Assembly (NCBI RefSeq): GCF_001044255.1
Contig: NZ_JYNX01000013.1
Span: forward strand, 1 to 64,000
Source of the DNA: Mycolicibacterium chubuense
Lineage (GTDB): Bacteria > Actinomycetota > Actinomycetes > Mycobacteriales > Mycobacteriaceae
Direction: 5' to 3'
DNA: 64,000 nucleotides
The position numbers and the translations under genes are program-made. Of the stretch, positions 21,252-38,928 are shown piece after piece. The stretch's first letter is position 1. Each line of letters opens with the position of its first letter. The notes beneath the pieces were generated by a model that searched no databases, was not told the origin of the DNA, and saw only the letters and a program-made list of their open reading frames with translations.

Positions 21252-21261
21252 GACCAACCCC

Positions 21262-22731: not shown

Positions 22732-22897
22732 CGCAACCTCCTGTGGTCCGCCCGCGTACCACCCACCCTAGGGCTCCGCCACCCGCCCCGTCGACGATCT
22801 CGCGCAATCTGTTGACTGGCCGTTCCGTACATAATCGCCGGTTCGGCTGTCCGGCCTGGACATGTACTGCTGTCGTGAATCTCCCTACGGTGAAGCC
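22732..22897. promoter_or_regulatory. Divergent intergenic region between monooxygenase and gabT operons
   Basis: 166 bp that must hold promoters for both operons. A TTGACT (22812-22817) and an AT-rich TACATAAT (22828-22835) are visible, but their spacing is too short for one promoter, so no exact promoter is called. No clear operator palindrome was found. Confidence 0.4.
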
Positions 22898-24250
22898 ATG
22901 ACAGCCATGCTCACCGGCGGACCCTCCCTCGATCAGCGGCGCCGGGTGCGCACCGAGGTTCCGGGTCCGAGGTCGCGGGAGCTGGCGGCCCGCCGCGCGG
23001 CGGCGCTGCCGGCGGGCCTGACCAGCTCCGCCGGTGTGTACGTGGCCGCGGCCGGCGGCGGGGTCGTCGTCGACGTGGACGGCAACTCGTTCATCGATCT
23101 GGGCAGCGGAATCGCCGTCACCACGGTGGGCAACGCGGCGCCGGCGGTGGTGTCCAGGGCGATGGCCCAGCTGCCGCTGTACACCCACACCTGTTTCCTG
23201 GCCACCCCGTACGAGCCCTACATCGAGGTCGCCGAGACACTGAACCGGATCACCCCGGGCGACCACGAGAAGCGCACCGCGCTGTTCAACACCGGCGCCG
23301 AGGCGGTGGAGAACGCCGTGAAGTATGCCCGCGCCGCCACCGGACGATCCGCGGTCGTCGTGTTCGACCACGCGTTTCACGGACGGTCGCTACTGACCAT
23401 GACGATGACCGCGAAGAACCAGCCCTACAAGCACGGCTTCGGCCCGTTCGCCCCCGAGGTGTACCGGGCGCCGATGGCCTACCCGTACCGCTGGCCCTCG
23501 GGACCGGAACACTGCGCTGACGAGGCCTTCAGTCAGTTCGCCCAGCTGGTCGACGCGCAGCTCGGCGCCGACGCGGTCGCGTGTGTGGTGGTCGAACCGA
23601 TCCAGGGTGAGGGCGGCTTCATCGTCCCCGCCGACGGGTTCCTGCGGTCGGTCGCCGCCTTCTGCCGGGACCGCGGCATCCTGCTGGTCGCCGACGAGGT
23701 GCAGACCGGCATCGCGCGCACCGGTAGCTGGTTCGCCTCCGACCACGAGGGCCTGGTGCCCGACCTGCTCGTCACCGCCAAGGGTCTGGCCGGCGGGTTG
23801 CCGTTGGCGGCGGTCACCGGTCGTGCCGACGTCATGGACGCCGCGCAGCCGGGTGGTATCGGCGGCACCTACAGCGGCAATCCCGTGGCCTGCGCCGCCG
23901 CGCTCGGGGTGTTCGAGGAGATCGAGACCGCCGACCTGCTGTCGCGCGCCCGGGTCATCGGCGACGTGATGGCGCGCGAACTGGCCGACATCGCCCGGCG
24001 CACCGGTGTGATCGGCGAGATCCGCGGCCGCGGCGCGATGATGGCGATCGAACTGGTGGTGCCGGGCAGCCGTGACCCGCACCGCGACGCGGTGGCCGCG
24101 CTGACCCGGCACTGCCTCGACAACGGCGTGCTCACCCTCACCGCGGGGACGTTCGGCAACGTGCTGAGATTCCTGCCCCCGCTGACCATCTCCGATGCGC
24201 TGCTCGTCGAGGCCTTCGACGTCCTGCGCGACGGCTTCTCCACCCTCTGA
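22898..24250 (+). CDS. gabT: 4-aminobutyrate / 5-aminovalerate aminotransferase
   Basis: A 450-residue class-III PLP aminotransferase. VADEVQTGIARTG carries the PLP-contacting Asp and TAKGLAGGLPLAAVTG the Schiff-base Lys; GAEAVENAVKYARA is the cofactor phosphate loop. It would convert GABA to succinate semialdehyde, or 5-aminovalerate to glutarate semialdehyde. The ATG at 22898 is preferred over one twelve codons earlier for lack of a ribosome site at the latter. It starts a four-gene operon with glutaryl-CoA dehydrogenase, which favours the C5 substrate as well as GABA. Confidence 0.88.
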   Translation: MTAMLTGGPSLDQRRRVRTEVPGPRSRELAARRAAALPAGLTSSAGVYVAAAGGGVVVDVDGNSFIDLGSGIAVTTVGNAAPAVVSRAMAQLPLYTHTCFLATPYEPYIEVAETLNRITPGDHEKRTALFNTGAEAVENAVKYARAATGRSAVVVFDHAFHGRSLLTMTMTAKNQPYKHGFGPFAPEVYRAPMAYPYRWPSGPEHCADEAFSQFAQLVDAQLGADAVACVVVEPIQGEGGFIVPADGFLRSVAAFCRDRGILLVADEVQTGIARTGSWFASDHEGLVPDLLVTAKGLAGGLPLAAVTGRADVMDAAQPGGIGGTYSGNPVACAAALGVFEEIETADLLSRARVIGDVMARELADIARRTGVIGEIRGRGAMMAIELVVPGSRDPHRDAVAALTRHCLDNGVLTLTAGTFGNVLRFLPPLTISDALLVEAFDVLRDGFSTL

Positions 24251-24268
24251 CCGAACGGGAGTACCACC

Positions 24269-25477
24269 ATGACCGCTCTTGCTTCTGCGCCGAAGAAGAC
24301 CATCTACGCGCCGCTGGAACTGTTCGACACCGCCCGCCTGCTCGACGATGACGAACGCGAGATCGGCGCGACCGTACGCAAATTCGTCGACACCGTGCTG
24401 CGTCCCGACATCGAGAACTGGTTCGAATCGGCCACCCTGCCCAAAGAACTCGCCAAGGAGTTCGGCGCCCTGGGCCTGCTGGGCATGCATCTGGACGGTT
24501 ACGGCTGCGCCGGCACCAACGCGGTCAGCTATGGACTGGCCTGCATGGAGCTCGAGGCCGGCGACAGCGGCTTCCGCAGCTTCGTCTCGGTGCAGGGATC
24601 CCTGTCGATGTTCTCCATCCACCGTTACGGGTCCGAGGAACAGAAGAACGAATGGCTGCCGCGGCTCGCGACCGGTGAGGCGATCGGATGCTTCGGCCTG
24701 ACCGAACCCGACTTCGGCTCGAACCCGGCCGGCATGCGCACCCGTGCAAGGCGCTCCGGCGCCGGAGAGAACGCAGACTGGGTGCTCGACGGCACCAAGA
24801 TGTGGATCACCAACGGCAACCTCGCCGACGTCGCCACCGTGTGGGCACGCACCGATGACGGTATCCGCGGGTTCCTGGTGCCCACCGACACACCGGGATT
24901 CACCGCCAACGCGATCCACCGCAAGCTGTCGCTGCGCGCGTCGGTCACCTCGGAGTTGGTGCTCGACAACGTGCGCCTGCCCGCGTCGGCGCAGCTGCCC
25001 CACGCCGCAGGCCTCGGCGCACCGCTGTCCTGTCTCAACGAGGCTCGCTTCGGCATCGTCTTCGGCGCGCTCGGCGCCGCCCGCGACAGCCTCGAGACGG
25101 CGATCGAGTACACCGGCACCCGCAGCGTCTTCGACAGGCCGCTGTCGAGCTACCAGCTGACCCAGGAGAAACTGGCGAACATGACCGTCGAACTCGGCAA
25201 GGGCATGCTCCTCGCGATCCATCTGGGCCGGATCAAGGACGCCGAGGGCGTCGCACCGGAACAGGTCAGCCTGGGCAAGCTCAACAACGTGCGGGAGGCC
25301 CTGGCCATCGCCCGTGAGTGCCGAACCCTGCTGGGCGGCAGCGGAATCACGCTGGAGTACTCCCCGCTGCGGCACGCCAACAACCTGGAATCGGTGCTCA
25401 CCTACGAGGGCACCTCCGAGATGCATCTGCTCTCCATCGGCAAGGCGCTGACCGGGCACGCCGCGTTCCGGTCATGA
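24269..25477 (+). CDS. Acyl-CoA dehydrogenase, glutaryl-CoA dehydrogenase type
   Basis: A 402-residue FAD enzyme whose sequence follows human glutaryl-CoA dehydrogenase closely: YGCAG, LEAGDSGFRS with the substrate-binding Arg, GCFGLTEPDFGS, FSLRAS-like KLSLRAS, and the catalytic Glu in TYEGTSE. It would oxidise and decarboxylate glutaryl-CoA to crotonyl-CoA. A small insert (RRSGAGENADW) lies before the VLDGTKMWI strand. It is 18 bases behind gabT and overlaps the aldehyde dehydrogenase, consistent with a C5-diacid route. Confidence 0.87.
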   Translation: MTALASAPKKTIYAPLELFDTARLLDDDEREIGATVRKFVDTVLRPDIENWFESATLPKELAKEFGALGLLGMHLDGYGCAGTNAVSYGLACMELEAGDSGFRSFVSVQGSLSMFSIHRYGSEEQKNEWLPRLATGEAIGCFGLTEPDFGSNPAGMRTRARRSGAGENADWVLDGTKMWITNGNLADVATVWARTDDGIRGFLVPTDTPGFTANAIHRKLSLRASVTSELVLDNVRLPASAQLPHAAGLGAPLSCLNEARFGIVFGALGAARDSLETAIEYTGTRSVFDRPLSSYQLTQEKLANMTVELGKGMLLAIHLGRIKDAEGVAPEQVSLGKLNNVREALAIARECRTLLGGSGITLEYSPLRHANNLESVLTYEGTSEMHLLSIGKALTGHAAFRS

Positions 25478-26934
25478 CCGCCGGCATCCGACACCTGATC
25501 GCCGGACAGTGGTTGGCCGGCAGCGGCGAACCGGTGCGCAGCGTCAATCCGGCCCGCCCGCACGTCGTGGTGGCCGAGGGCCGCGGTGCCGTCGCCGCGG
25601 ACGTCGACGAGGCGGTCGCGGCCGCCACCGAGGCTGCCAGAGCCTGGGCGGCGACCCCGATTCACCAGCGCGGTGCGCTGTTGCTCGCCGCGTCGGACGT
25701 GGTCGCCGGCCACGCGCGGGAGTGGGGACGGGAACTGGCCGTCGAAGAGGGCAAGACCCTGGCCGAGGGCATCGGTGAAGTGCAGCGCGCCGCCCAGATC
25801 CTGCGCTACTACGGCAACGAGGGCGACCGGCAGGCCGGAGAGATGTTCGCCTCACCGCGCTCCGGTGAGCGAATCCTGGTCACTCGTAAGCCGATCGGGG
25901 TCGTCGGGGTGATCACGCCGTTCAACTTCCCCATTGCGATCCCGGCGTGGAAGATCGCGCCTGCCCTGGTGTACGGCAACACCGTCGTCTGGAAACCGGC
26001 CGGCACCGTTCCGCTGCTCGCGATGCGGCTCGCCGAAGCGCTGACCACGGCCGGCCTGCCTGCGGGTGTGCTCAACCTGCTCGTCGGCGGACCGGACATC
26101 GGCGACGCCATCGTCGGTCATCCGGGTGTCGACGCGCTCACCTTCACCGGTTCCACCGGGATCGGGCGGCGCATCGCCGCCACCGGCGCGGCGCGCGGCG
26201 TGCCGGTACAGGCCGAGATGGGCGGCAAGAACGCCGCGGTGGTGCTCGACGACGCCGACATCGACCTCGCGCTCGAGCAGGTGATGCTGGGCGCGTTCCG
26301 CTCTACCGGCCAGAAGTGCACGGCGACATCGCGATTGATCGTCACCTCGGGAATCGCCGACCGGTTCCTGGAGTCACTGTGTGACCGGGCCCAGCGTCTG
26401 CGGGTCGGTGATCCCACCGACGACGCCACCGAGATGGGGCCGGTGATCAGCGCTGCTGCGCGGCAGAGCATCGCAGCCGGGATCGCGACCGCCGCCACGC
26501 AGGGTGGGTTCGTGCTGACCGGAGGGCAACCCTATGCGGACAGTGCCCGGGCCGAGGGCTTCTTCGTCGCGCCGACCATCCTGGAGCTCGACGGTGTCAC
26601 CGCGGACGTGTGGACCGAGGAGCTGTTCGGACCGGTGCTGGCGGTGGCGCGGGCAGCCGACGCCGAGGAAGCCTTCGCGCTCGCCGGCGACAGCGAGTTC
26701 GGGCTGTCCGCAGCGGTGTTCACCCAGGACCTCACCCGAGCGCTGCAGGCCGTGGAGCAGATCGACGTCGGCGTGTTGCACGTGAACTCCGAGTCTGCCG
26801 GTGCCGATCCGCACGTGCCGTTCGGCGGAGCCAAGAAGAGCGGGCTCGGCCCGAAAGAGCAGGGCGGCGCCGCGCGCGAGTTCTTCACCCACACCACCAC
26901 GGTGTACCTGCGCGGCGGGCGGGCGGGCGCGTGA
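25474..26934 (+). CDS. NAD(P)-dependent aldehyde dehydrogenase (semialdehyde type)
   Basis: A 486-residue aldehyde dehydrogenase. The catalytic Cys lies in GQKCTATSR, the general-base Glu in EMGGKN, and the cofactor motif FTGSTGIGRR is present. The ATG overlaps the previous stop by four bases; the open frame upstream is discarded. In this operon it probably oxidises glutarate or succinate semialdehyde made by GabT, and perhaps an aminoaldehyde or its gamma-glutamyl form earlier in the path. It is the only aldehyde dehydrogenase in the block. Exact substrate is not readable from sequence. Confidence 0.88.
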   Translation: MTAGIRHLIAGQWLAGSGEPVRSVNPARPHVVVAEGRGAVAADVDEAVAAATEAARAWAATPIHQRGALLLAASDVVAGHAREWGRELAVEEGKTLAEGIGEVQRAAQILRYYGNEGDRQAGEMFASPRSGERILVTRKPIGVVGVITPFNFPIAIPAWKIAPALVYGNTVVWKPAGTVPLLAMRLAEALTTAGLPAGVLNLLVGGPDIGDAIVGHPGVDALTFTGSTGIGRRIAATGAARGVPVQAEMGGKNAAVVLDDADIDLALEQVMLGAFRSTGQKCTATSRLIVTSGIADRFLESLCDRAQRLRVGDPTDDATEMGPVISAAARQSIAAGIATAATQGGFVLTGGQPYADSARAEGFFVAPTILELDGVTADVWTEELFGPVLAVARAADAEEAFALAGDSEFGLSAAVFTQDLTRALQAVEQIDVGVLHVNSESAGADPHVPFGGAKKSGLGPKEQGGAAREFFTHTTTVYLRGGRAGA

Positions 26935-28067
26935 CGCGGGGGGCGCTCGACGGCATCGTCGTCGTCGACTTCAGCAGGGTGCTCGCGGGACCGTACGCGA
27001 CGATGATGCTCGGCGACTTCGGCGCCGATGTCATCAAGGTCGAGCGGCCGGGCACCGGCGACGACACCCGGCACTGGGGTCCGCCGCACGATTCGGCGGG
27101 TGTGGCAACCTATTTCAACGCCGTCAACCGCAACAAGCGATCCGTCGCGCTGGACCTCGCCGATCCCGACGACCTCCTGCGAGCGCGCGAATTGGTCAGC
27201 GGCGCCGACATCGTCGTGGAGAACTTCCGCGCCGGCACCATGGAGAAGCTCGGGCTCGGCTACGAGGACGTGCGAAAACTCCGGCCCGACGTCATCTACT
27301 GCTCGATCACCGGATTCGGCCGCGCCGGCGGGGCCGCCCTGCCCGGTTACGACCTGCTGGTGCAGGCCGTGGGCGGGCTGATGAGCGTCACCGGCACCGA
27401 GCCCGGCGATCCCACCAAGGTCGGGGTGGCACTGGTCGACGTACTCGCGGGCCTGCACGCGCTCAGCGGCATCCTGGCCGCGCTCGCACACCGCGACCGC
27501 ACCGGCGAGGGTCAGCGGGTGGACACCAACCTGATGTCGGTGCTGCTCTCCTCGCTGGTGAATCAGGCATCCGGCTATCTGGGTGCGGGAGTGGTCCCGG
27601 GCATGATGGGCAACCGGCACCCGAGCATCACGCCGTATCAGACGTTCGAGACCGCCGACCGGCCGATCGCGATCGCCGTCGGCAACGACAAACAGTTCCG
27701 TGCGTTCAGCGCCGCCCTCGGCAGACCCGACTGGGCGGACGACCCGAGGTTCCTCACCAACCCCGTCCGTGTGAGCAACCGGGAAGCGTTGTGCGCGTTG
27801 ATCGAAGCCGAGATGAGCCGCCACGGTGCCGATCACTGGTATGCGGTCATGACGGCCGCGGGAGTGCCGGCCGGCCCGATCAACGACGTGTCCGAGGCGT
27901 TCGCCTTCGCGCGCCAGCTCGGCATCGACGCCACGGTCGGCATGCCCGACGGATCCACACCGCAGGTCGCCAATCCGATCGAGTTGTCAGCCACACCTGT
28001 CAGCTACCGGCTCAGCCCTCCCCCGCTGGGCGGTAGCGCCGACGGTTGCCGCTCGGAGAGCAGCTGA
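26931..28067 (+). CDS. CaiB/BaiF family CoA-transferase (glutarate CoA-transferase-like)
   Basis: A 378-residue class-III CoA-transferase resembling human SUGCT (succinate-hydroxymethylglutarate CoA-transferase): SRVLAGPYATMMLGD, KVERPGTGDDTR and YCSITGFG motifs, with the likely catalytic Asp in ALVDVLAGLHA. It would activate glutarate to glutaryl-CoA for the dehydrogenase two genes upstream. The GTG start overlaps the previous stop. The C-terminus departs from the family after SPPPLGG and seems about 25-30 residues short; this end overlaps the convergent pucR gene by 64 bp. Confidence 0.85.
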   Translation: MTRGALDGIVVVDFSRVLAGPYATMMLGDFGADVIKVERPGTGDDTRHWGPPHDSAGVATYFNAVNRNKRSVALDLADPDDLLRARELVSGADIVVENFRAGTMEKLGLGYEDVRKLRPDVIYCSITGFGRAGGAALPGYDLLVQAVGGLMSVTGTEPGDPTKVGVALVDVLAGLHALSGILAALAHRDRTGEGQRVDTNLMSVLLSSLVNQASGYLGAGVVPGMMGNRHPSITPYQTFETADRPIAIAVGNDKQFRAFSAALGRPDWADDPRFLTNPVRVSNREALCALIEAEMSRHGADHWYAVMTAAGVPAGPINDVSEAFAFARQLGIDATVGMPDGSTPQVANPIELSATPVSYRLSPPPLGGSADGCRSESS

Positions 28068-29521
28068 CGGGCCCGGATCGCGAGCCATAGTCGCACCCGG
28101 CTGTCCACGACGTCGACGTCGTCGGCCAGCAGCGCGCCGATGCGGCGCATCCGGTGGCGCATCGTGTGGCGATGGATACGCAGGTCGGTGGCCGCGGCCT
28201 CCAGATGACCGTTGCGCCGCAGATAGGCCTCGAGCGTCCCGACCAGCTCGGTGTCCAACGGCGTCAACGGTGCTGCCAGTACGGTCAACTCGACGGCACT
28301 GCGGCCGCCGAGGAGCACCCCGAACGTCCCGAGGTCGGCGAACGCGGCCATCCGTCCGGGGTGTGCCTGTCCGGCGATGCGGGCCTGTTCCACGCCCACA
28401 GCGATCTCGTCGACGCTGACGGCGTCGCTCACGCCGCCGGTGGGTGGCTGCGCCAACCCGGATGCGAGGCCGTCGATACGTCGTCTCTCGCTGCCCGGCA
28501 CCACGATCACCACCTCGTCGCCCACCGGGGCCATCAGATAGGGCCCGGCGGTCGCGAGCAGCCGCCCCAGATCCTGTTCGGCGGCCAGCATCGGTCCGAC
28601 GTCGTGGAGAACCGCCACCACGACATCGGCGTGCGGCTCGAAACCGAAATAGCGCAGCACGCCGTCGTCGACGACGGAGCTCTGCAGCAGCGCGCGCGTC
28701 GCCGCCGTACGCAGACGTTGCTCCGCCTCCGCCACACCGGCCGGCTTTTCCAGCGCGATCGAGATCAGCGACACCGCATGCGCGACGAGTAACCGCTCCG
28801 AGTTCGACATCGGCGCTGCCGTCCGCACCGCCAGCTGGCCCCGAAGCGGTTGCGCCGCACGGAGGTTCTGGACCGTGACGTAGCCCTCGGCATCGCCGGT
28901 GACATACGCGCCCCCTCGGCGCGCCGCCGGCGAGTGCGCGCCGTCGACGACGACGGCGAAGAGCCGGTCCTGCTCGCTGCCCGCCGCGGCCAGCACCGTG
29001 CCCTCGGTGCCGACGACCAGCACCGTGCCGGCCAGCTTCTCGGCCAGTGCTTCGACCACGCCGGGAATGCCGCCGCGCAGCGTCGCGCGGGCGAGCACCT
29101 CCTGCCCGTCCACCACGCGCTGCACCGCCCGGAGTTCGTCGGCCTTGACCGCGTCGATGACCGTGCGGGTGATCGCGATGAACGGTGTGGACGGGGGCAC
29201 CTCCAGAACCGGAAGGCCGAGTCCGTCGCCGGCAGCGAGCACGCCGGCGGGCACCTCGGCGAGTGTGGTCCCGGTGTCGACCGCCAGCGCGGAGACGCCG
29301 GCCGCGGCCAGGCGTGCGACGTAGTCGAACTGCGTCCGCTCATCGGTGCCGATGTTGATACCGGTGGTCATCACCAGTTCGCCGCCGGACAGGTACGGGG
29401 TCGGATCGGCCAATTCGATCGCGTGCGCCCAGGTGATGTCGCGCTCGGCGGCGGTCGCACCGGCGATGAGAGCCAGACCCAGACCCTCGACCTGAGCCAG
29501 CTCCCGCGCGGTGATCGCCAC
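28004..29521 (-). CDS. PucR-family transcriptional regulator
   Basis: A 505-residue regulator. The N-terminal purine-catabolism-regulator-like domain (about 10-125) is followed by a central region and a C-terminal PucR helix-turn-helix (EAAATDLRIHRHTMRHRM, residues ~455-475). GTG start, 11 bases after the upstream hydrolase stop; no strong ribosome site, suggesting coupled translation. It is last in the P450 operon and probably responds to a nitrogenous intermediate of the pathway. Its 3' end overlaps the CoA-transferase gene on the other strand. Confidence 0.87.
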   Translation of the reverse strand: MAITARELAQVEGLGLALIAGATAAERDITWAHAIELADPTPYLSGGELVMTTGINIGTDERTQFDYVARLAAAGVSALAVDTGTTLAEVPAGVLAAGDGLGLPVLEVPPSTPFIAITRTVIDAVKADELRAVQRVVDGQEVLARATLRGGIPGVVEALAEKLAGTVLVVGTEGTVLAAAGSEQDRLFAVVVDGAHSPAARRGGAYVTGDAEGYVTVQNLRAAQPLRGQLAVRTAAPMSNSERLLVAHAVSLISIALEKPAGVAEAEQRLRTAATRALLQSSVVDDGVLRYFGFEPHADVVVAVLHDVGPMLAAEQDLGRLLATAGPYLMAPVGDEVVIVVPGSERRRIDGLASGLAQPPTGGVSDAVSVDEIAVGVEQARIAGQAHPGRMAAFADLGTFGVLLGGRSAVELTVLAAPLTPLDTELVGTLEAYLRRNGHLEAAATDLRIHRHTMRHRMRRIGALLADDVDVVDSRVRLWLAIRARQLLSERQPSALPPSGGGLSR

Positions 29522-29532
29522 GAAGAGCAGTC

Positions 29533-30342
29533 TTACTCGTCGGCAGCCGCCGCGGCCAGCATGACGTGGCGCACCTGTTCGGCCGCATCCACGAACGCCG
29601 CGAACAAGGCCGTGCGGTCAGCCTCCGGACCGTCGTCGTCCTCCGGGTGCCACTGCACCCCCAGAAACCACCGGTGTGGATCCTCGACCGCCTCGACGAT
29701 GCCGTCCAACGCCCGGGCCGCGACGACCAGACCGGTACCCACCCGGTCCACCGCCTGATGATGGCCGGATCGTCCGATGACGCGCTGTGCGCCGAGGATC
29801 GCGGCCAGCCGGGTACCGGGAACGAGATCGATCGGCTCGTCGACGAACTCGGGCTCGCCGGGCGCTCCATGATGCAGGGTGTAGTCCACGATGTCGCCGA
29901 TGATCGTGCCGCCGCGCGCCACGTTCAGGAGCTGCGAGCCCCGGCAGATGCCGAGAATCGGGCGATCAGCTGCCTCGGCGGCGGCGATGACGGCGAGCGC
30001 GTCCCGGTCGGCGCGGAGGTCGACACCGTAGGCCTTCGGATGGGGCGGGTGGACTCCGTAGCAGGATGCGTCGATGTCTCCGCCGCCGAGCAGCAGCAGA
30101 CCATCGAATTCTGCTGCCTTGTGCGCGTTCGCGAGTGGCTCGGTGGTGTCCCAGATGTCGTATGACGCGCCGAGTTCGTGAAGCGTCGAGAGCGCCACGC
30201 GGGTGAACCGCCGGATCAGCGCGACATCCGCCGGGCTGATGTCCGGGAAGTTGAGCGAAGCGAGGACACAGATGTGGGCCCGGGGACGGTCGGGGGCGGA
30301 CGACGTCGGCATGACATCGCGGAGCTCCACCCGGTGGTTCAT
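29533..30342 (-). CDS. Class-I glutamine amidotransferase-like gamma-glutamyl hydrolase (PuuD-like), copy 1
   Basis: A 269-residue peptidase-C26 family enzyme. Catalytic nucleophile Cys133 lies in GICRGSQLLN, with His232 and Glu234 in QWHPED. PuuD removes the glutamyl group from gamma-glutamyl-GABA in E. coli putrescine breakdown; here it could release an omega-amino acid such as 5-aminovalerate. The ATG overlaps the stop of a second hydrolase (ATGA). Only about a third identical to that copy by eye, so different substrates or a heteromer are possible. Confidence 0.85.
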   Translation of the reverse strand: MNHRVELRDVMPTSSAPDRPRAHICVLASLNFPDISPADVALIRRFTRVALSTLHELGASYDIWDTTEPLANAHKAAEFDGLLLLGGGDIDASCYGVHPPHPKAYGVDLRADRDALAVIAAAEAADRPILGICRGSQLLNVARGGTIIGDIVDYTLHHGAPGEPEFVDEPIDLVPGTRLAAILGAQRVIGRSGHHQAVDRVGTGLVVAARALDGIVEAVEDPHRWFLGVQWHPEDDDGPEADRTALFAAFVDAAEQVRHVMLAAAAADE

Positions 30343-31049
30343 CGAGAGTCCTTTCGTTTACCCGCGCGGTCGACGAGGTCGGCGAACAGTGCGGCGTCGG
30401 TGGTCGAGGTGGGGCGGTCCTCGGGATGCCATTGCACGCCGAGGACGTCGGCGCGCCGATGCTCGGCGGCCTCGACGACGCCGTCGGCCGCGACGGCCGT
30501 CGCAGTCAGATCGGGAGCCAGTCGCCCCAGCGCCTGGTGGTGGTACGACGACACGTCGATGGTCTCGACGCCCACGATCGCGTGCAGCCGGGATCCGGCG
30601 CTCACCGACACCTGATGAACGGCGTTGTGGTGCAGCGTGTCGGTCTCCTCGACGTGCTGAACCAGGGTGCCCCCCAGCGCGACGTTGAGAACCTGCATCC
30701 CTCGGCAGATGGCCAAGGCCGGCAGCTCCAGTTGCAGCACCGCACGGATCACTGCCAGGTCGAACTCGTCCTGGAAGGCCACCGTGTCGTGGGTGTGCGG
30801 ATCGAGGTCGGCTCCGTAACGGCACGGGTCCACATCGGCACCACCCGGAAGGAGCACGCCGTCGAAAGCGGCCAATCTGCCGGGTAGTTCAGCGCCCGGG
30901 TCGGCGGCAGGGCCGTGCACCGTCACCGGTTCGCCGCCGGCCGTCCACACTGCCTCACAGATCGCCTCGGCGACCAGCGTCGCCGAGAAACGCAGGATCG
31001 GCACGTGCGGGGCCCGGCGGCCGGGCACGGCCACCAACGGCCGGTTCAC
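30339..31049 (-). CDS. Class-I glutamine amidotransferase-like gamma-glutamyl hydrolase (PuuD-like), copy 2
   Basis: A 236-residue peptidase-C26 protein with Cys115 in ICRGMQVLN and His208/Glu210 in QWHPED, so the triad is intact. The GTG at 31049 overlaps the previous stop (GTGA). An in-frame extension 46 codons upstream has an Arg-rich, non-family sequence and is rejected. It is coupled at both ends within the P450 operon. Presumed role: hydrolysis of gamma-glutamyl amides made by the GS-like ligase. Confidence 0.83.
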   Translation of the reverse strand: MNRPLVAVPGRRAPHVPILRFSATLVAEAICEAVWTAGGEPVTVHGPAADPGAELPGRLAAFDGVLLPGGADVDPCRYGADLDPHTHDTVAFQDEFDLAVIRAVLQLELPALAICRGMQVLNVALGGTLVQHVEETDTLHHNAVHQVSVSAGSRLHAIVGVETIDVSSYHHQALGRLAPDLTATAVAADGVVEAAEHRRADVLGVQWHPEDRPTSTTDAALFADLVDRAGKRKDSR

Positions 31050-31759
31050 GTCCCGAACGGGTATTCGAGGGTCGGCAGCCACTCCTCCCAGACATCGCGC
31101 AGGCGACCGGAATCGATGAGACGACCGAGTGCGTCGTCGATGTCGGCCAGAATGTCGGGCCGGTCCTTGGCCACCGCGATTCCCCATCGGTTACCGGTCG
31201 GCACCGTGAACGCGAGGTCGTAATCGGGATGAGTGGCGCCCAACGGGACGAACACCACGTCGTCGTCGACGACGGCGTCGACGTCCTTGGCGAGCAGCGC
31301 GGCGAGCATGTCGGCGTAGACGTCGTCGGAGCCGGGCCCGAACGGCACCGGCACCGCCCCCGTGAAGGTCTCGACCAGCGCCATGTTGGTGCTGTTCTCG
31401 ATCGCGGCGACCCTGCGGCCGACCAGATCGTCAGGCCCCTCGATGTCGTCGCCCCGCCGGATCAACACACCTTCGTGGAACACGGCGTACGGCCGGGTGA
31501 AGTCGACCTGCGCTCGGCGTTCAGCCGTGATGCCCTGCCCGCACAGCACCGCGTCGGCATCACCACGCTGTACCGCGGGAATCATCTCGACCCAGGGCAC
31601 GCGCACCCATTCGACGGGACGGCCGAGTTGTGACCCGAGCGCGTCGGCGACGGCGGGTTCGTAGCCCCGCCGGCCGTGTTCGGGCGTCCACAGCGAGAAC
31701 AGTGGGGGCGCTTCGGCGTCCAGACAGGCCAGACGCAGCGGATGCGAGGATGCGGTCAC
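31046..31759 (-). CDS. Family-3 solute-binding domain protein lacking a signal peptide
   Basis: A 237-residue protein with the periplasmic binding fold of polar amino-acid ABC systems: GYEPAVADAL, VEMIPAVQRGDADAV, VDFTRPYAV and RVAAIENSTN segments. It starts directly with the mature fold (RLACLDAEAPP). There is no hydrophobic signal, no lipobox, and no ABC permease or ATPase in the window. GTG start overlaps the GS-like stop by four bases. It may be a cytosolic ligand-binding or sensor/chaperone protein, or an enzyme of the cyclohexadienyl-dehydratase type that shares this fold. Confidence 0.75.
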   Translation of the reverse strand: MTASSHPLRLACLDAEAPPLFSLWTPEHGRRGYEPAVADALGSQLGRPVEWVRVPWVEMIPAVQRGDADAVLCGQGITAERRAQVDFTRPYAVFHEGVLIRRGDDIEGPDDLVGRRVAAIENSTNMALVETFTGAVPVPFGPGSDDVYADMLAALLAKDVDAVVDDDVVFVPLGATHPDYDLAFTVPTGNRWGIAVAKDRPDILADIDDALGRLIDSGRLRDVWEEWLPTLEYPFGT

Positions 31760-33144
31760 GGCGCGTCGTTCCAGTACATCTGACGCTCCCAGTCGGTGAC
31801 GACCCCGCAGAAGCGGGCCCATTCGTCGGCGTGGAAGTCGACGAGCAGCGCCGACAACTCCGGACCGAGAGCCTGGGTGAGCACCTCATCGGCGCGAAAG
31901 GCGTCGATCGCCTCGCCGAGCGTGAGCGGCAGGGCCGGGAACAGCTCGTCCTGCACGGTGTCGTAGGACGAGCCTCGCGTCGGCGCTCCGGGATCGATCG
32001 CATTCTTCATGCCGTCCTCGCAGGCAGCGAGGATCACCGCGTGAGACAGGTACGGGTTGACCGCAGCGTCGGGCAGCTTGTACTCCAGTCGACCGTTCGC
32101 CGACAGGCGGACCGTGCAGGTCTTGTTGTCGAGACCCCAGTTGATCCGCGACGGCGCGAATTGTCCAGCGTCCCAGTAACGCTTGTACGAATTCACGGTG
32201 GACCCGTTCACCAGCATCGCACCGGCGGAGTGGGCCAGCAGACCACCGAGGGCGTGCTGTCCGACCGTGGACAGGTGCAGCTCGGTCACTCCGGGATCGA
32301 CGAGCACGTTGACCTCGTCGTCGCGCCAGAGACTGAAGTTGTGATGGCAGCCGTTGCCCATCATCCCGGTGGCGGGCTTGGGCATGAAGCTCGCATGGAT
32401 ACCCAATTCGCGGGCCACCTGTTTGCAGATCTGACGGTAGGTGGTGAGTCGGTCGGCCGTCAGGTCGGCTCGGTCGAACATGAAGTTCAACTCGACCTGG
32501 AACTCGTCCTCGTAGTCGCCTTCGACCATGTCCAGGCCCAACGCCTGGGCGTACTGGACGACCTTCTTGACGATCGGCCGGTTCCGCTCGAGGTGTTCGA
32601 TGTGATAGGCCGGGCTCGAGCCGGGCCGGAACTGCGCTTCCAGACCTTCGCCCTGCCAGGTCATCTCCGGTTCGCACCCCGTGCGCAGCTCCAACCCGGT
32701 CCGGTCGGAGAAACCGGCATGCATGCGGTGCAGTAAACCCCTGCTGTCGCAGGCGAACTCCGCGCCGGCCCGGTCGATGAGATGGTCAGGTTCATAGAGC
32801 CGGCAGAACACCCGGGCGAAGCTGGTGTCCCACGGCAGGACGGCGAAGGTGTCCAGGTCCGGAACAGCGGTGTACTCGGGCGCGTGCCCTCCGCCCGCCA
32901 TCAGATCGCCTTCGCGGGTGCTCTGCAGATTGGCGACCGCGGTCTGGTGCTGCTGCACCCCCTTGATCGACAACCGATGGAAATGCCGCGCCGGGACCAC
33001 TTTGCCGACGACGCGTCCGGTGATGGTGATCGCCTGGAAGTAGACGAACTCCACTCCGTGGTCATCGATGATCTCCTGCGCCTCCACCAAGCCGGGGCTC
33101 GTGGCGTTGAGCTGCCGGTGCGCGTCGAGCGGTGTGGTCGTCAT
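31756..33144 (-). CDS. Glutamine synthetase family gamma-glutamyl-amine ligase (PuuA/MorC-like)
   Basis: A 462-residue glutamine-synthetase-fold ligase. Metal-site segments GCEPEMTW, FQVELNF and NGCHHNFSLW are present, as is the C-terminal LEYKLPDAAVNPYL segment, where a Lys sits at a position usually Arg. It should use ATP and glutamate to gamma-glutamylate an amine rather than make glutamine for assimilation. GS-like genes follow a P450 and ferredoxin in the morpholine/piperidine loci of Mycobacterium (MorC). The ATG overlaps the ferredoxin stop by four bases. Confidence 0.85.
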   Translation of the reverse strand: MTTTPLDAHRQLNATSPGLVEAQEIIDDHGVEFVYFQAITITGRVVGKVVPARHFHRLSIKGVQQHQTAVANLQSTREGDLMAGGGHAPEYTAVPDLDTFAVLPWDTSFARVFCRLYEPDHLIDRAGAEFACDSRGLLHRMHAGFSDRTGLELRTGCEPEMTWQGEGLEAQFRPGSSPAYHIEHLERNRPIVKKVVQYAQALGLDMVEGDYEDEFQVELNFMFDRADLTADRLTTYRQICKQVARELGIHASFMPKPATGMMGNGCHHNFSLWRDDEVNVLVDPGVTELHLSTVGQHALGGLLAHSAGAMLVNGSTVNSYKRYWDAGQFAPSRINWGLDNKTCTVRLSANGRLEYKLPDAAVNPYLSHAVILAACEDGMKNAIDPGAPTRGSSYDTVQDELFPALPLTLGEAIDAFRADEVLTQALGPELSALLVDFHADEWARFCGVVTDWERQMYWNDAP

Positions 33145-33350
33145 CTGTTCACCTCGATGACGGAGAACGCGAACGAGATCGCCTGGGCAGGGCAGACATC
33201 GGCGGCCTCGGCGACGGCGTCGCGCTCCGATTCGTCGGGGCTCGGGTCGTACTCGAGCTTCCCGTCGTCATCGAGGGTGAAGACGTTCGGTGCGGCGATG
33301 GTGCACTGGCCGTGGTCCTGACACAGGCTGCGGTCGACGGTGATGCGCAT
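33141..33350 (-). CDS. [3Fe-4S] ferredoxin partner of the P450
   Basis: A 69-residue ferredoxin. Cys10, Cys16 and Cys53 (followed by Pro) are the only cysteines, a pattern that gives a [3Fe-4S] cluster as in MorB-type and other actinobacterial P450 ferredoxins. The ATG at 33350 is preceded by AAAGGA; a longer frame upstream would overlap the P450. It lies 37 bases after the P450 stop and overlaps the GS-like gene. It should pass electrons from a ferredoxin reductase, not found in the window, to the P450. Confidence 0.92.
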   Translation of the reverse strand: MRITVDRSLCQDHGQCTIAAPNVFTLDDDGKLEYDPSPDESERDAVAEAADVCPAQAISFAFSVIEVNR

Positions 33351-33387
33351 TGGGAGGTCCTTTCGGAGGAGGGTTGAGGGGTACCGA

Positions 33388-34590
33388 TCAGGCGACGGGG
33401 GTGAACCCGATCGGGAGGCGAATCGGTCCGGTGTTCCCGGAGTCGGGAAGCCAGGTGGCGCCGGGCAATTCGTGCGGGTCACGCAGGCGGCGAGCCAGCA
33501 GGGGCAGGGCCTCGCTCATGTCCGACCGTGCCACGAAGTGACCCAGACAATGGTGTACGCCACCACCGAAACCGAAGTGCGGCTTACGTTCTGCGGTGAT
33601 GTCGAAGCCCGCTCCGAAGACACGGGGGTCGGTGCCCGCGGATTCGCTGTAGAGGTGCACGGTGGTGCCGGCGGTGAACTGCACGCCGTCGAATTCGAAG
33701 TCCTCGAGCACTTCGCGGGTCACCCAGCGAACGGTGGGGTTCACCCGCATGACCTCCTCGACGGCCTTGCCCCCGAGGTCGGGCCGCTCAGCGAGCAACC
33801 GCCACTGCTCGGGATGGGCGATGAAGGTCTGCATGGCCAGGCCGAGCTGATTGCGTGTGGTGTCGAACCCGCCGAAGATCAGCAGCACCATGGCCTCTCT
33901 CAGCTCGGTGTCCGAGAGGCGTCCGTCTTCCGGACGGGAGGCGTTGACCAGCGCGGTCACGAAGTCGTCCTGCGGGTGCGCGCGACGATCGGCGATCACC
34001 TCGTCGCAGTAGACGTAGAGGCGCTGCAGCGCAGCCTCGATCTTCGGTAGATCCTGGCGCAACGTCACGCCGAGGGCCAGGCCGATGGTCGACGCCTCGG
34101 TGGAGATGACCTTCCAGTGTTCCTCGGGGAGGCCCAGCATGATGGCGATGACCCTGGCCGCATAGGGCTCGGCGAACTCGGCGACGAACTCGCACCGATC
34201 CGGCTCGGCGAAACCGTCGATCAGTTCGTCGGCCAGCGCCTGGAACCTCGGGACGAGGGTCGCAAGCAGTTTCGGAGAGAAGGCCGGGTTCATCAGCCTG
34301 CGGAGTCGGTGATGCTCCTCGCCCTCCTTGTTGAGGATCCAACTGGCGAACCAGTCGGCGAACGGACCCTCGGTGACGCCGTTGTGCGCCGGCCACGCGA
34401 CGCTGCCCTGCCGCAGCCTGCGGTCCTTGAGGAGCTTGTTCATCTGCTCGTAGCGCAGCACGGCGATGCCGTACGGCGTGGTCGCGTACCAGCTGCGTTC
34501 GCGGGCGTCGTGCACGTCCGCCGAGGTGATCGAGAACGACGGATCGGCGACATCGAATGCCGGCGGGGTTCCGAGGGTGACCGACGACAT
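33388..34590 (-). CDS. Cytochrome P450, CYP151 (PipA/MorA)-like
   Basis: A 400-residue soluble bacterial P450. Heme ligand Cys348 lies in FGFGGGVHHCLGH, the ExxR pair is Glu279/Arg282, and the I-helix oxygen-activating segment is GGFDTTRNQ (240-248). Followed by a [3Fe-4S] ferredoxin and a GS-like ligase, it matches the PipA/MorA arrangement known for hydroxylating piperidine, pyrrolidine and morpholine beside the ring nitrogen. The CYP151 label rests mainly on this context. GGAGGT precedes the ATG by eight bases. Confidence 0.85.
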   Translation of the reverse strand: MSSVTLGTPPAFDVADPSFSITSADVHDARERSWYATTPYGIAVLRYEQMNKLLKDRRLRQGSVAWPAHNGVTEGPFADWFASWILNKEGEEHHRLRRLMNPAFSPKLLATLVPRFQALADELIDGFAEPDRCEFVAEFAEPYAARVIAIMLGLPEEHWKVISTEASTIGLALGVTLRQDLPKIEAALQRLYVYCDEVIADRRAHPQDDFVTALVNASRPEDGRLSDTELREAMVLLIFGGFDTTRNQLGLAMQTFIAHPEQWRLLAERPDLGGKAVEEVMRVNPTVRWVTREVLEDFEFDGVQFTAGTTVHLYSESAGTDPRVFGAGFDITAERKPHFGFGGGVHHCLGHFVARSDMSEALPLLARRLRDPHELPGATWLPDSGNTGPIRLPIGFTPVA

Positions 34591-34631
34591 ATGTGCTACC
34601 TCCGAGTGATCGCGACCGTGGGTCCCTAAAT

Positions 34632-34658
34632 ACTCTAGAAGTAGATTCTTATTGTCAA
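34632..34658 (-). promoter_or_regulatory. Candidate promoter of the P450 operon
   Basis: On the minus strand TTGACA (34658-34653) is followed after 15 bases by TAGAGT (34637-34632), a TANNNT -10, in an unusually AT-rich stretch 40 bases before the P450 start. An AGAA-N5-TTCT inverted repeat (34637-34649 region) lies in the spacer, a plausible site for the GntR regulator. Confidence 0.5.
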
Positions 34659-34677
34659 GTGCTGTCCTCGGCCTGGG

Positions 34678-35412
34678 TCAGGACGTCTCCTCGGGCCACG
34701 CGACCGCCAGAACCCAGCCGGTGCCCAGCGGCATCTCGACGACGCTGCGGAAGGCCGACGGATCGGACGCCGCACCGGCCGAGGGCATCGCGCCGAGTCG
34801 GGATCCGACGATCCACCTCGGCGTGTTGGCCGCGATGACCCGACGCTCGGCATTGACCACCACGGCATCCTCGGCGGTCTGCCGCAGCACCTCGAGCAAC
34901 CGGTGTTCGACCTCACCGACGACGAGATCCGCACCCGCCAGACCGAGGAACGTGCCGTCGGCGACGATCGGGACCGCGGCGGTGATGGTGTACATGTCCG
35001 AGCCGCTGTAATCGACGTAGGGCCCGTAGGCCACCCGCGCCTGTCCGCCCTGAGCGAGCCGGTACCAGTCCATCTGCAGGTAGTCGTAGACGTCGATGCT
35101 GGTCGGATCGAAGTTCAGGCGAAGTCGCGTCGGCCGGTCATTGATGCGCTGCCACCAGGCCATGTAGCGCTCCCGGCCTTCGACGACCGACGGCGCCGCG
35201 ACGAAACCCATACCCCAGACGATGCTGCGCTCGGCATCGAGGAGTTCGGCCAGCAGCCGCTGCAGATTGCTGAAGTGCGCCTCGGTCAGCGCGGCCCGAG
35301 ACGGCCGACTCCGCAGCACCTCCTCGGCGACGCGGGCGAGCAGCGCGTAGACGGGTTCGAGGGTCTGCGACGCCTGCTCTGCCAGGCTGTTCGCCAGTGT
35401 CTCGGATGTCAT
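34678..35412 (-). CDS. Soluble Cache-domain protein
   Basis: A 244-residue protein with a Cache/PDC-like sensor region: RSIVWGMGFVAAP, MDWYRLAQGG, and YVDYSGSDMYTITAAVPI segments typical of dCache ligand domains. There are no transmembrane helices, signal peptide or output domain, which is unusual for Cache proteins. The ATG overlaps the stop of the GntR gene, so the two are co-translated. Similar proteins paired with GntR regulators may act as effector-binding partners; this is inference. It ends 87 bases before the P450 start. Confidence 0.72.
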   Translation of the reverse strand: MTSETLANSLAEQASQTLEPVYALLARVAEEVLRSRPSRAALTEAHFSNLQRLLAELLDAERSIVWGMGFVAAPSVVEGRERYMAWWQRINDRPTRLRLNFDPTSIDVYDYLQMDWYRLAQGGQARVAYGPYVDYSGSDMYTITAAVPIVADGTFLGLAGADLVVGEVEHRLLEVLRQTAEDAVVVNAERRVIAANTPRWIVGSRLGAMPSAGAASDPSAFRSVVEMPLGTGWVLAVAWPEETS

Positions 35413-36149
35413 GGGCCGGGCCCTCCGGTCGAGAGATCCAGGTTGACCGCGGTCACCCGCGCCAGCTGGCCCATCACATGGGCCTCGGCCAGCCGGCGGG
35501 CTTCCTGCGGGTTCTCGGCTGCCACCGCGGCGGCGAGGGCATGCTTCTGGTCGACATAGGCGGTGACGTCGATCGGCGGCCCGATCGGCAGCCAGATAAG
35601 GCCGGCGACCTCAGCCTGCAGGTTGGCCTCCCGGCGCGCCAGCCGGGCGGACTGGGAGGCGACGGCCACCTCGATGTGGAATCGACTGTCGGCGCGGATC
35701 CGGTCCCCCAACGTCGCGGCGACGCCGAGTTGATCGGTGAGGGCGAAGAGCCGCCGCACCATGTACGGCGCCGCACGTTCGGCGGCGAGCCGTGCCGCCT
35801 GCCCGGCGATGGCGGTGTGCTCGTCGAACAGATCCCGCAGATCAGACGCGCTCATCGCGGCCAGCCGCGCGGTCAGCCGATCGATCGGCGGGCCCGCCGG
35901 CCTGCGCACGAACGAACCGCCGCTGCGCCCACGCCTGGTCTCGATCAACTCCTGGTCGCGCAGCGTTGCCAGTGCTTCGCGCACGGTCATGGGGGCCACC
36001 CCGAACTGGGCCGCGAGGTCCACCTCGACGGGCAGTCGCTCACCGTCGTCGAGAAGTCCGAGATGAATGGCCTCGGTGATGCGCTGCACGATCTCGTCGG
36101 CGCGCCCCATCGGGGCCTCGGCCGCGACGAGGGGTGACAACGACGACAC
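35409..36149 (-). CDS. GntR/FadR-type transcriptional regulator (PipR-like)
   Basis: A 246-residue GntR regulator. The winged helix (about 18-85: LPVEVDLAAQFGVAPMTVRE) is followed by an FCD-type all-helical effector domain. PipR of M. smegmatis, which controls the P450 PipA, is a GntR-family protein as I recall. The GTG at 36149 is preferred because GGGAGGAG lies just upstream; the longer frame runs into the permease promoter region. Divergent from the APC permease with 137 bp between. Likely represses the P450 operon and/or the permease. Confidence 0.85.
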   Translation of the reverse strand: MSSLSPLVAAEAPMGRADEIVQRITEAIHLGLLDDGERLPVEVDLAAQFGVAPMTVREALATLRDQELIETRRGRSGGSFVRRPAGPPIDRLTARLAAMSASDLRDLFDEHTAIAGQAARLAAERAAPYMVRRLFALTDQLGVAATLGDRIRADSRFHIEVAVASQSARLARREANLQAEVAGLIWLPIGPPIDVTAYVDQKHALAAAVAAENPQEARRLAEAHVMGQLARVTAVNLDLSTGGPGP

Positions 36150-36222
36150 CGCCACTCCTCCCGTAGACCCGAGGGGCAATCTACTCGATCCCGGACCAAT
36201 CTCGCGCTTCCTGTTGCCCTTT

Positions 36223-36242
36223 AAACCATAAGACTGTAGTTT
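36223..36242. promoter_or_regulatory. Imperfect palindrome between GntR and permease genes
   Basis: AAACCATAAGACTGTAGTTT pairs at 12 of 20 positions with its reverse complement (outer arms AAAC/GTTT perfect). It lies in the AT-rich centre of the divergent intergenic region, where a GntR operator would be expected. Confidence 0.35.
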
Positions 36243-36286
36243 TCCGATCCATTGACCTGCGTCACAGCTATGGGAGAGAGCACGCC

Positions 36287-37807
36287 ATGACACAAACGAG
36301 TACGCCCGGCAGCCCGGCTGACGACTTCTACTCCTTCCACGACCACGATGACGCCGCGCACCTGCACGCGCTCGGCTACAAATCGGAGTTCAAACGGGAC
36401 ATGAGCCCGTGGGCGAACTTCTCCCTCGGCTTCACGTACCTGTCGCCTGTCGTGGGTGTGTACACGCTGTTCGCCTACGCGCTGGCGACGGGCGGACCAC
36501 CGATGATCTGGAGCTTCCTCCTCGTCGGACTCGGACAACTCCTCGTCGCGCTGACGTTCAGCGAGATCGTCGCGCAGTTCCCCGTTGCCGGCGGCGTCTA
36601 CCCGTGGGCGCGCCGGTTGTGGGGCCGCCGATACGCCTGGATGACGGGCTGGGTGTACATGGTGGCGCTCCTGGTGACCATCGCCTCGGTGGTGTACGGC
36701 GCCGGTCCTTACATCGCCGCCACGCTGGGGATAGACGCCACGGTGAACAGCACCATCTCCTTCGCGCTCGCGCTGCTCGCGCTGGCCACCGCCATCAACT
36801 TCATGGGCACGAAAGTCCTTGCGAAGGCGGCGATCATCGGTTTCACCGCGGAGATCATCGGCGCCCTGGTCGTCGGCATCTGGCTGTTGGTCGGGCACCG
36901 ACACCACAACCTGGGCGTGCTGTTCGACAGCTTCGGAGCAGGCGGAGACGGCAACTACCTGTGGGCGTTCGCCGCAGCCGCGCTGATCGGCATCTACCAG
37001 TATTACGGCTTCGAGGCGTGCGGCGACGTGGCCGAGGAGGTCCCCGATCCGGGCCGGCTGATCCCGAAGGCCATGCGCCGCACCATCTATGTCGGTGGGG
37101 CCGCGGCGACGTTCGTCTGTCTCGCCCTGGTGCTGGCCGTCACCGACATTCCCGGGGTCATCTCAGGAGAGAACCCCGACCCGGTCAGCTCCGTGTTGAA
37201 CGAGGCCTTCGGCCCGGTCGGCGCGAAGGCGGTCCTGGCCATCGTGCTGATCTCGTTCCTGTCCTGTGCGATGAGTTTGCAGGCCGCCGCCAGTCGGCTT
37301 GCCTACTCCTACGGCCGCGACGGAATGATCATGGGCAGTTCACTTTTGAAGAAATTCTCGACCACCCGGCACGTTCCGCCGTACGCACTGCTTCTCGCGG
37401 CGGCGGTGCCGGCCGTGATCGTCGTCGGTTCGAAGTTCTCCACCGATGCCATCACCAAGATCATCAGCTTCGCCGCGTTCGGGATCTATCTCGGATTCCA
37501 GATGGTGGTGCTGGCCGCACTTCGCGCGCGGTTGAAGGGCTGGGTTCCGAGCGGCAAGTACTCGCTGGGCAAGTGGGGACTGACGGTCAACGTCGCAGCT
37601 CTGATCTACGGCGTCACCGCGATGATCAACATGGCGTGGCCGCGAACGCCCGACGCTGCGTGGTACGACAACTGGATCGTCGCGCTGTCGGCAGCCGTCG
37701 TCGTCGGCATCGGTCTGATCTACATGGTCGTCCATCCACTGCACGACCGAAGCACCGGACCATACGCCGACGCCATCCCGGACCCCGCCCGCACCGCCGG
37801 CCTCTGA
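36287..37807 (+). CDS. APC-superfamily amino acid/amine permease
   Basis: A 506-residue inner-membrane transporter with about 12 helices and a 45-residue cytosolic N-terminus. YLSPVVGVYTLFAYAL and SEIVAQFPVAGGVYPWAR are typical APC motifs near helices 1 and 2; GFEACGDVAEEVPDP is the conserved helix-6/7 loop. GGGAGAGAG precedes the ATG. Divergent from the GntR regulator, it probably imports the amine or amino acid used by the locus, comparable in role to PuuP. Confidence 0.88.
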   Translation: MTQTSTPGSPADDFYSFHDHDDAAHLHALGYKSEFKRDMSPWANFSLGFTYLSPVVGVYTLFAYALATGGPPMIWSFLLVGLGQLLVALTFSEIVAQFPVAGGVYPWARRLWGRRYAWMTGWVYMVALLVTIASVVYGAGPYIAATLGIDATVNSTISFALALLALATAINFMGTKVLAKAAIIGFTAEIIGALVVGIWLLVGHRHHNLGVLFDSFGAGGDGNYLWAFAAAALIGIYQYYGFEACGDVAEEVPDPGRLIPKAMRRTIYVGGAAATFVCLALVLAVTDIPGVISGENPDPVSSVLNEAFGPVGAKAVLAIVLISFLSCAMSLQAAASRLAYSYGRDGMIMGSSLLKKFSTTRHVPPYALLLAAAVPAVIVVGSKFSTDAITKIISFAAFGIYLGFQMVVLAALRARLKGWVPSGKYSLGKWGLTVNVAALIYGVTAMINMAWPRTPDAAWYDNWIVALSAAVVVGIGLIYMVVHPLHDRSTGPYADAIPDPARTAGL

Positions 37808-37833
37808 CAGAACCGCAGGCGCGGACTCGTCGT

Positions 37834-38847: not shown

Positions 38848-38928
38848 AAGCGGCCACCCTAATGCGATTTCGGCGTGCTAATCGTCGCTACGCGCATGTT
38901 TGCACGCTGAATCCGCAAGGATGGGGCC

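Follow-up and report, generated by a model that had tools for sequence, protein, structure and literature searches.

What is known of how bacteria use piperidine, pyrrolidine and morpholine concerns the step catalyzed by a cytochrome P450; to our knowledge, the glutamine synthetase (GS)-like gene that lies beside a cyclic-amine P450 has no settled role and the later steps lack genes. Can gene context supply a route from the ring amine onward? We addressed this question for positions 22898 to 36149 of the window, the 64,000 nucleotides analyzed here, which are the first 64 kb of the 75-kb contig NZ_JYNX01000013.1 in the 5.9-Mb genome of Mycolicibacterium chubuense. An earlier note had described this interval as an apparently complete degradation locus for cyclic secondary amines. 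Four plus-strand genes (gabT, gcdH, aldh and a caiB-type coenzyme A [CoA]-transferase gene) are met by a converging minus-strand block of gntR, dCache, P450, ferredoxin, GS-like ligase, a protein of solute-binding protein (SBP) fold, two C26 hydrolases and pucR; an APC-family permease gene (36287..37807, plus strand) is divergent from gntR and lies just beyond the interval. The gene content reported earlier is real: frames and families agree for GabT, a GcdH-type enzyme, the aldehyde dehydrogenase, the CoA-transferase, the GS-like protein, ferredoxin, P450 and FCD-type GntR, and the coordinates fit. PucR, the two C26 hydrolases, the SBP_bac_3 protein and the PDC/dCache protein had gone unmentioned. 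The grouping of these genes is conserved and is not due to chance. From the gene content, order, conservation and co-occurrence observed here we infer the substrate, every reaction and both regulatory links: on balance, the locus probably serves the breakdown of a C5 cyclic secondary amine, likeliest piperidine, by a P450-fed, Puu-like route joined to a route of the davTD-gcdGH type.

To determine whether the two halves are linked, we compared their distributions. Of 248 genus genomes, 31 have relatives of the window P450 (33388..34590, minus strand), a proposed cyclic-amine α-hydroxylase, at 60 to 92% identity; the next among the matches listed are at most 40% identical. The window's relatives belong to Mycobacterium and Mycolicibacterium. 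CoA-transferase relatives (E <= 1e-140) were present in 42 of the 248 genomes, of which 24 belong to the 31 that have the P450 and 18 to the 217 that lack it (Fisher p = 3.5e-16, a value that ignores kinship), and in 18 of the 24 genomes with both, the two genes lay within 15 kb of each other. GcdH relatives (E <= 1e-180) were commoner, occurring in 64 of 248 genomes. We also examined 80 named P450 loci (71 Actinomycetota, 9 Pseudomonadota), which were the best among 181 confirmed places; they overlap our genome collection, so the two sets are not independent. At least two of gabT, gcdH and caiB, at set identity cut-offs, were found in 22 of these 80 loci (14 of the 28 whose titles are mycobacterial and 8 of the 52 others), versus none of the three genes in any of 20 control regions, which came from ten mycobacterial genomes at places chosen by hand rather than at random. 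Because contig ends or the 10-kb flank cut several loci, the 80-locus counts are lower bounds. In the eight non-mycobacterial loci (three Streptomyces, Microtetraspora, Humibacillus, Nocardioides caldifontis and two Arthrobacter), the glutarate genes stand on either side of the P450 block and gene orders vary. Co-occurrence in other genomes was what the earlier note had proposed to look for, and its tie between the glutarate module and the P450 set is borne out by gene context in several actinobacterial orders.

We weighed these results against the possibility that the halves are independent, the P450 block having landed beside a gabT-gcdH operon that serves lysine, cadaverine, 5-aminovalerate or glutarate. 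We regard this as unlikely, if worth serious consideration, and several observations weigh on its side and against a joint function. The gcdH-caiB core is present in 18 of 217 genomes without the P450, 7 of 31 P450 genomes have no CoA-transferase relative, and in 6 of the 24 P450 genomes with a core it is located elsewhere in the genome. Two P450-less genomes, G019 and G197, hold the core without the block: by blastn they match the window on both flanks, with match gaps at gabT (22771-24291 and 22870-24249, respectively) and at the P450 block plus permease (29521-37871 and 29540-38864, the LLM oxidoreductase gene also being gone in G197). The paired gaps mean that both gabT and the P450 block are missing, each from its own place beside one gcdH-aldh-caiB-pucR core, but G019 and G197 are sisters in the operon tree and may therefore represent one event. 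Across 39 operons, adjacent gabT was associated with the P450 (raw p = 0.0007); five supported independent pairs gave on average 2.4 agreeing, 0.0 opposing and 2.5 equal, so that significance was unreachable, and the association was not significant in this underpowered pair test. The test covered 39 of 40 operons (G054 was dropped, its caiB lying outside its 8-kb piece) and scored gabT only where it lay no more than 3 kb from gcdH; G182 and G209, which have caiB without gcdH in the stretch, had been left out beforehand. When other gene orders and G054 were counted, the cluster included gabT in 22 of the 24 P450 genomes and in 5 of 16 readable others. Independence is opposed by the recurrence of the pairing, in varied orders, in the non-mycobacterial genera listed above and by its absence from all 20 control regions. 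We conclude that a piperidine-to-crotonyl-CoA locus, with the corrections given below, is well supported by gene context.

Separate regulators with no common element also speak for independent halves. The GntR protein (35409..36149, minus strand) carries GntR and FCD domains, is of the FadR type and, from the GTG at 36149, is 246 amino acids long, resembling PipR in type and size. The gntR/APC interval of 20 of 24 related loci contains a 27-nt element (36220..36246 in the window, plus strand) that is a probable operator; its pattern was drawn up post hoc, and scores were judged against the 95th percentile of single-base shuffles. Related sites before the P450 exceeded that percentile in 16 of 23 cases (34634..34660 in the window, minus strand), and an element of this type was found before gabT in 0 of 12. 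A single operator shared by both halves was thus rejected, and the absence before gabT counts against one regulon and against a joint function. The pucR gene (28004..29521, minus strand), last in its block and convergent with caiB, is retained beside the gcdH core where the P450 block is missing; the gabT operon is more likely to be under PucR. The sequence TGTCC-N5-GGACA precedes gabT in the window (22848..22862, plus strand) and in some relatives, and is a weak candidate for a PucR site. The two halves look separately regulated.

The glutarate route of Pseudomonas putida involves davTD and gcdG, and the plus-strand half of the locus would be a route of this type. GabT (22862..24250), a class III aminotransferase for GABA or 5-aminovalerate whose frame opens at 22862 with a second possible start at 22898, scored 547 bits against the GABA transaminase model TIGR00700 (cut-off, 507), a model that does not set the chain length of the substrate. 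For GcdH (24269..25477), an acyl-CoA dehydrogenase, the best solved relatives are glutaryl-CoA dehydrogenases, led by 3swo (785 bits), and two segments of the human enzyme, DSG(F/Y)RS and TYEGT, are retained. We take 3swo to be from M. smegmatis; of 396 genomes, G344 (98%) and G077 (97%) have its closest relatives, which in both lie about 8 to 9 kb from a P450 that is 84% identical to that of the window. The aldh gene (25474..26934, overlapping gcdH by 4 nt) would encode the glutarate-semialdehyde dehydrogenase, and the caiB-type gene (26931..28067, overlapping aldh by 4 nt) a succinate--glutarate CoA-transferase. The scores of these last two count against the proposed route: aldh fell below every NCBIfam cut-off shown, and the CoA-transferase, a class III family member, reached 362 bits with its best model, succinate--glutarate CoA-transferase, against a cut-off of 750. 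Because GcdH and a glutarate CoA-transferase fit a C5 product, a C5 substrate is favored.

How would the P450 product reach this half? The GS-like ligase (31756..33144, minus strand), a proposed γ-glutamyl aminoaldehyde synthetase, aligned best with the glutamate--methylamine ligase 9qur, and in both proteins an aromatic residue replaces the glutamate of the GYEAP segment, presumably the residue that deprotonates ammonium. Because this ammonium-type glutamate is absent, we rejected the gene as a plain glutamine synthetase. The two hydrolases of the block, gatA (29533..30342) and gatB (30339..31187, with a true start probably downstream of 31187), both on the minus strand, are Peptidase_C26 proteins for which PuuD is the best model, at scores below its cut-off. 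GS matches were present in 73 of the 80 P450 loci, and a PuuC-type dehydrogenase (>=50% identity) in 20 of the 80, including those of Halomonadaceae and Xanthobacter; in nine loci (L084, L085, L087-L092 and L095) the latter gene lies between the two hydrolase genes. For two examples of this added dehydrogenase the best NCBIfam model was PuuC (611 and 596 bits; cut-off, 850). Three features favor γ-glutamyl intermediates, namely the C26 hydrolases, the residue pattern of the GS-like protein and the relatives' PuuC-type dehydrogenase, and the ligase and hydrolases are probably the two ends of a Puu-type route. Glutamylation of the aminoaldehyde would block its re-closure to piperideine. Other findings pull the opposite way: the ligase scored below the cut-offs of its nearest NCBIfam models (197 bits against 650 for GGputSyn), the window block contains no PuuC-type gene, and the best PuuC-type homologue elsewhere in the genome is 44% identical. 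A PuuB amine oxidase gene is likewise absent from the block, and an amine oxidase-like gene at 38929-40269 persists where the block is absent.

The earlier note had 5-aminopentanal pass directly to 5-aminovalerate, in which case the GS-like protein would serve nitrogen assimilation only. We consider this improbable. It accords with the missing PuuC-type gene in the window block and with a study of Gulosibacter, which reads the neighboring GS as a protein of ammonium assimilation (PMC9477822). It leaves the two C26 hydrolases with no other evident substrate, and it sits poorly with the PuuC-type genes and GS matches of the related loci and with the loss of the ammonium-type glutamate; the direct step therefore gives way to γ-glutamyl intermediates in the route that we prefer. 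That the main substrate is instead pyrrolidine, morpholine or another cyclic amine is also doubtful, since GcdH and the glutarate CoA-transferase suit a C5 product and no morpholine-product-specific gene was recognized among the scanned window genes, even though PipA has been tied to piperidine and pyrrolidine and MorA to morpholine (PMC9477822, PMC2018728) and the seven P450 genomes without a CoA-transferase indicate that the P450 block can occur without that gene. The pyrrolidine branch drawn earlier, through GABA to succinate, has no gene of its own in the locus.

The description of the locus as complete was too strong, because the window lacks two genes that many relatives have. A small ferredoxin gene with CxxHxxC...CP spacing (33141..33350, minus strand) adjoins the P450, but no ferredoxin reductase gene is present in the window block. 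Such a gene occurs in 49 of the 80 named loci, though in only 7 of the 28 mycobacterial ones, and in many related blocks it sits between GS and ferredoxin (the example in L064 is a Pyr_redox_2 protein); the best homologue in the window's own genome is only 42% identical. With the reductase and PuuC-type genes both missing from the block, the locus is not self-sufficient, a further point against the proposed route. The best solved relative of the P450 itself is 3p3l, which we take to be AurH, and the 5.9-Mb genome has 39 P450 matches, among which are fragments of a single gene. In two of the 31 genomes with the P450 its match is split in two pieces, as if the frame were broken (G009:C1:4071551-4072746 and G056:C1:2866581-2867767). 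Separately, three mycobacterial genomes contain a second, distant type of block (L058, L060 and L061; P450 identity, 63 to 64%) that has its own gabT, aldh and CoA-transferase and a PuuC-type dehydrogenase of 64 to 67%.

The dCache and SBP-fold genes are the least explained part of the locus. The dCache gene (34678..35412, minus strand; 4-nt overlap with the gntR stop) adjoins gntR on the same strand in all 61 named loci where both were found. Its predicted structure (predicted local distance difference test [pLDDT], 94) matches amine and amino acid receptor domains, namely those of MkcA, PctD, TlpQ, McpU, CqsR, PacA, Tlp3 and PctA. The first Tyr and both Asp positions are kept in all 77 dCache sequences, and Met replaces the carboxylate-binding Arg126 of PctA in 65 of the 77. 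Among 70 sequences, the most hydrophobic stretch lies at about residues 120 to 160 in 45 and within the first 40 residues in 11, and 28 pass a hydropathy of 1.6; because of these 28, the case for solubility rests on position and fold, and the protein, which shows no clear membrane helix, is probably soluble. Amine-type dCache domains have been described with GntR among their output domains (PMC10104139). The SBP_bac_3-fold gene (31046..31759, minus strand), for which we assume a start at the GTG at 31759 that overlaps the GS stop, lies directly beside the GS gene, on its strand, in 64 of the 67 named loci where both were found. No signal peptide was found in the protein once the part overlapping GS was removed, and no stretch above a hydropathy of 1.6 was found in 60 SBP-fold sequences. 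The structural model (pLDDT, 87.5) resembles amino acid-binding proteins and the ancestor of cyclohexadienyl dehydratase, and Cys33, Cys94 and Arg102 are invariant across 19 aligned sequences. Our guess is that the protein binds or converts the γ-glutamyl intermediate.

Like the window, the pip set of M. smegmatis mc2 155 and the mor set of Mycobacterium sp. HE5 have a P450 with a ferredoxin, and we take both also to hold a GS-like gene. The window's P450-ferredoxin-GS set and FadR-type GntR are probably of the pip/mor kind, as the earlier note had said. PipR of M. smegmatis mc2 155 is a FadR-type GntR of 245 amino acids (MSMEG_6700; PMC2018728). The partners of MorA are an adjacent reductase and ferredoxin (PMC9477822); the window block, unlike mor, has no reductase gene. 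One report lists CYP151, the family to which the window P450 may belong, among mycobacteria only for the group of SAP species (PMC5018878). In the papers found, the window's hydrolase, SBP-fold, dCache and glutarate genes are not linked to pip or mor, and a link between pip/mor and glutarate genes was not found among the open-access papers listed, which does not establish its absence from print. The Puu polyamine route of Escherichia coli and Streptomyces coelicolor, the γ-glutamyl route being known in Streptomyces (PMC8998196), likewise uses a GS-like ligase and C26 hydrolases, with its PuuC-type enzyme matched in related blocks; unlike Puu, the window has a P450 in place of the amine oxidase, and ring opening would come ahead of glutamylation. 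Glutarate catabolism in P. putida (PMC6667623) uses the types of aminotransferase, semialdehyde dehydrogenase, CoA-transferase and GcdH that are proposed for the window, but the window has PucR instead of the LysR-type GcdR, and its genes adjoin a P450 block. In Gulosibacter molinativorax, clusters studied in silico and by transcriptomics pair a PipA-like P450 with a GS gene, as in the window; the P450s (53% identity to PipA, 52% to MorA) were proposed with the GS genes for azepane ring opening, and these clusters, unlike the window, have a proposed caprolactam route and no glutarate half (PMC9477822).

Plasmid pGKT2 of Gordonia sp. KTR9 (L206, 14482-21493) shares with the window the order of an FCD regulator, a cache protein and a P450, the last being 69% identical to its window counterpart; unlike the window, it continues with an FAD oxidoreductase and a second P450, presumably the RDX genes xplB and xplA, and has no glutarate gene among the annotated neighbors shown. 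Three sets of neighboring window genes were considered as parts of the locus and rejected. An LLM oxidoreductase (37834-38847) and the amine oxidase-like FAD enzyme (38929-40269) are beside the block only in the nearest relative, L031, among 32 regions, and the latter stays where the block is absent. Two Baeyer-Villiger-like oxygenases (19770-22731) remain in relatives without the block. They form a tandem pair of flavin monooxygenases on the minus strand beside gabT, and in the P450-less G019 and G197 they adjoin gcdH.

Taken together, these results suggest the following route. The APC permease would import the amine, and the P450, reduced via the small ferredoxin and a reductase encoded elsewhere, would hydroxylate the carbon beside the nitrogen, giving a carbinolamine that would open to 5-aminopentanal. 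The GS-like ligase would couple the free amine of this aldehyde to glutamate, stopping ring re-closure; the aldehyde would then be oxidized, in many relatives by a PuuC-type enzyme and here by the plus-strand aldh product or an enzyme encoded elsewhere, and the C26 hydrolases would free 5-aminovalerate and glutamate. GabT would yield glutarate semialdehyde, the aldehyde dehydrogenase glutarate, the CoA-transferase glutaryl-CoA and GcdH crotonyl-CoA. GntR may control the P450 block, with amine sensing by the soluble dCache protein, and PucR may control the gabT operon. A bolder reading, which we hold less likely than not, takes as a whole a hybrid route from P450 opening through ligase trapping to crotonyl-CoA, an intracellular dCache amine sensor working with GntR and an SBP fold that binds or acts on the γ-glutamyl intermediate. 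The gene context offers a full route that can be tested and a role for the GS-like ligase, and it draws attention to a soluble dCache protein and a cytosolic SBP fold, both conserved and both unusual in where they occur; if the bolder reading is true, dCache and SBP_bac_3 folds, best known outside cells, would here act inside them.

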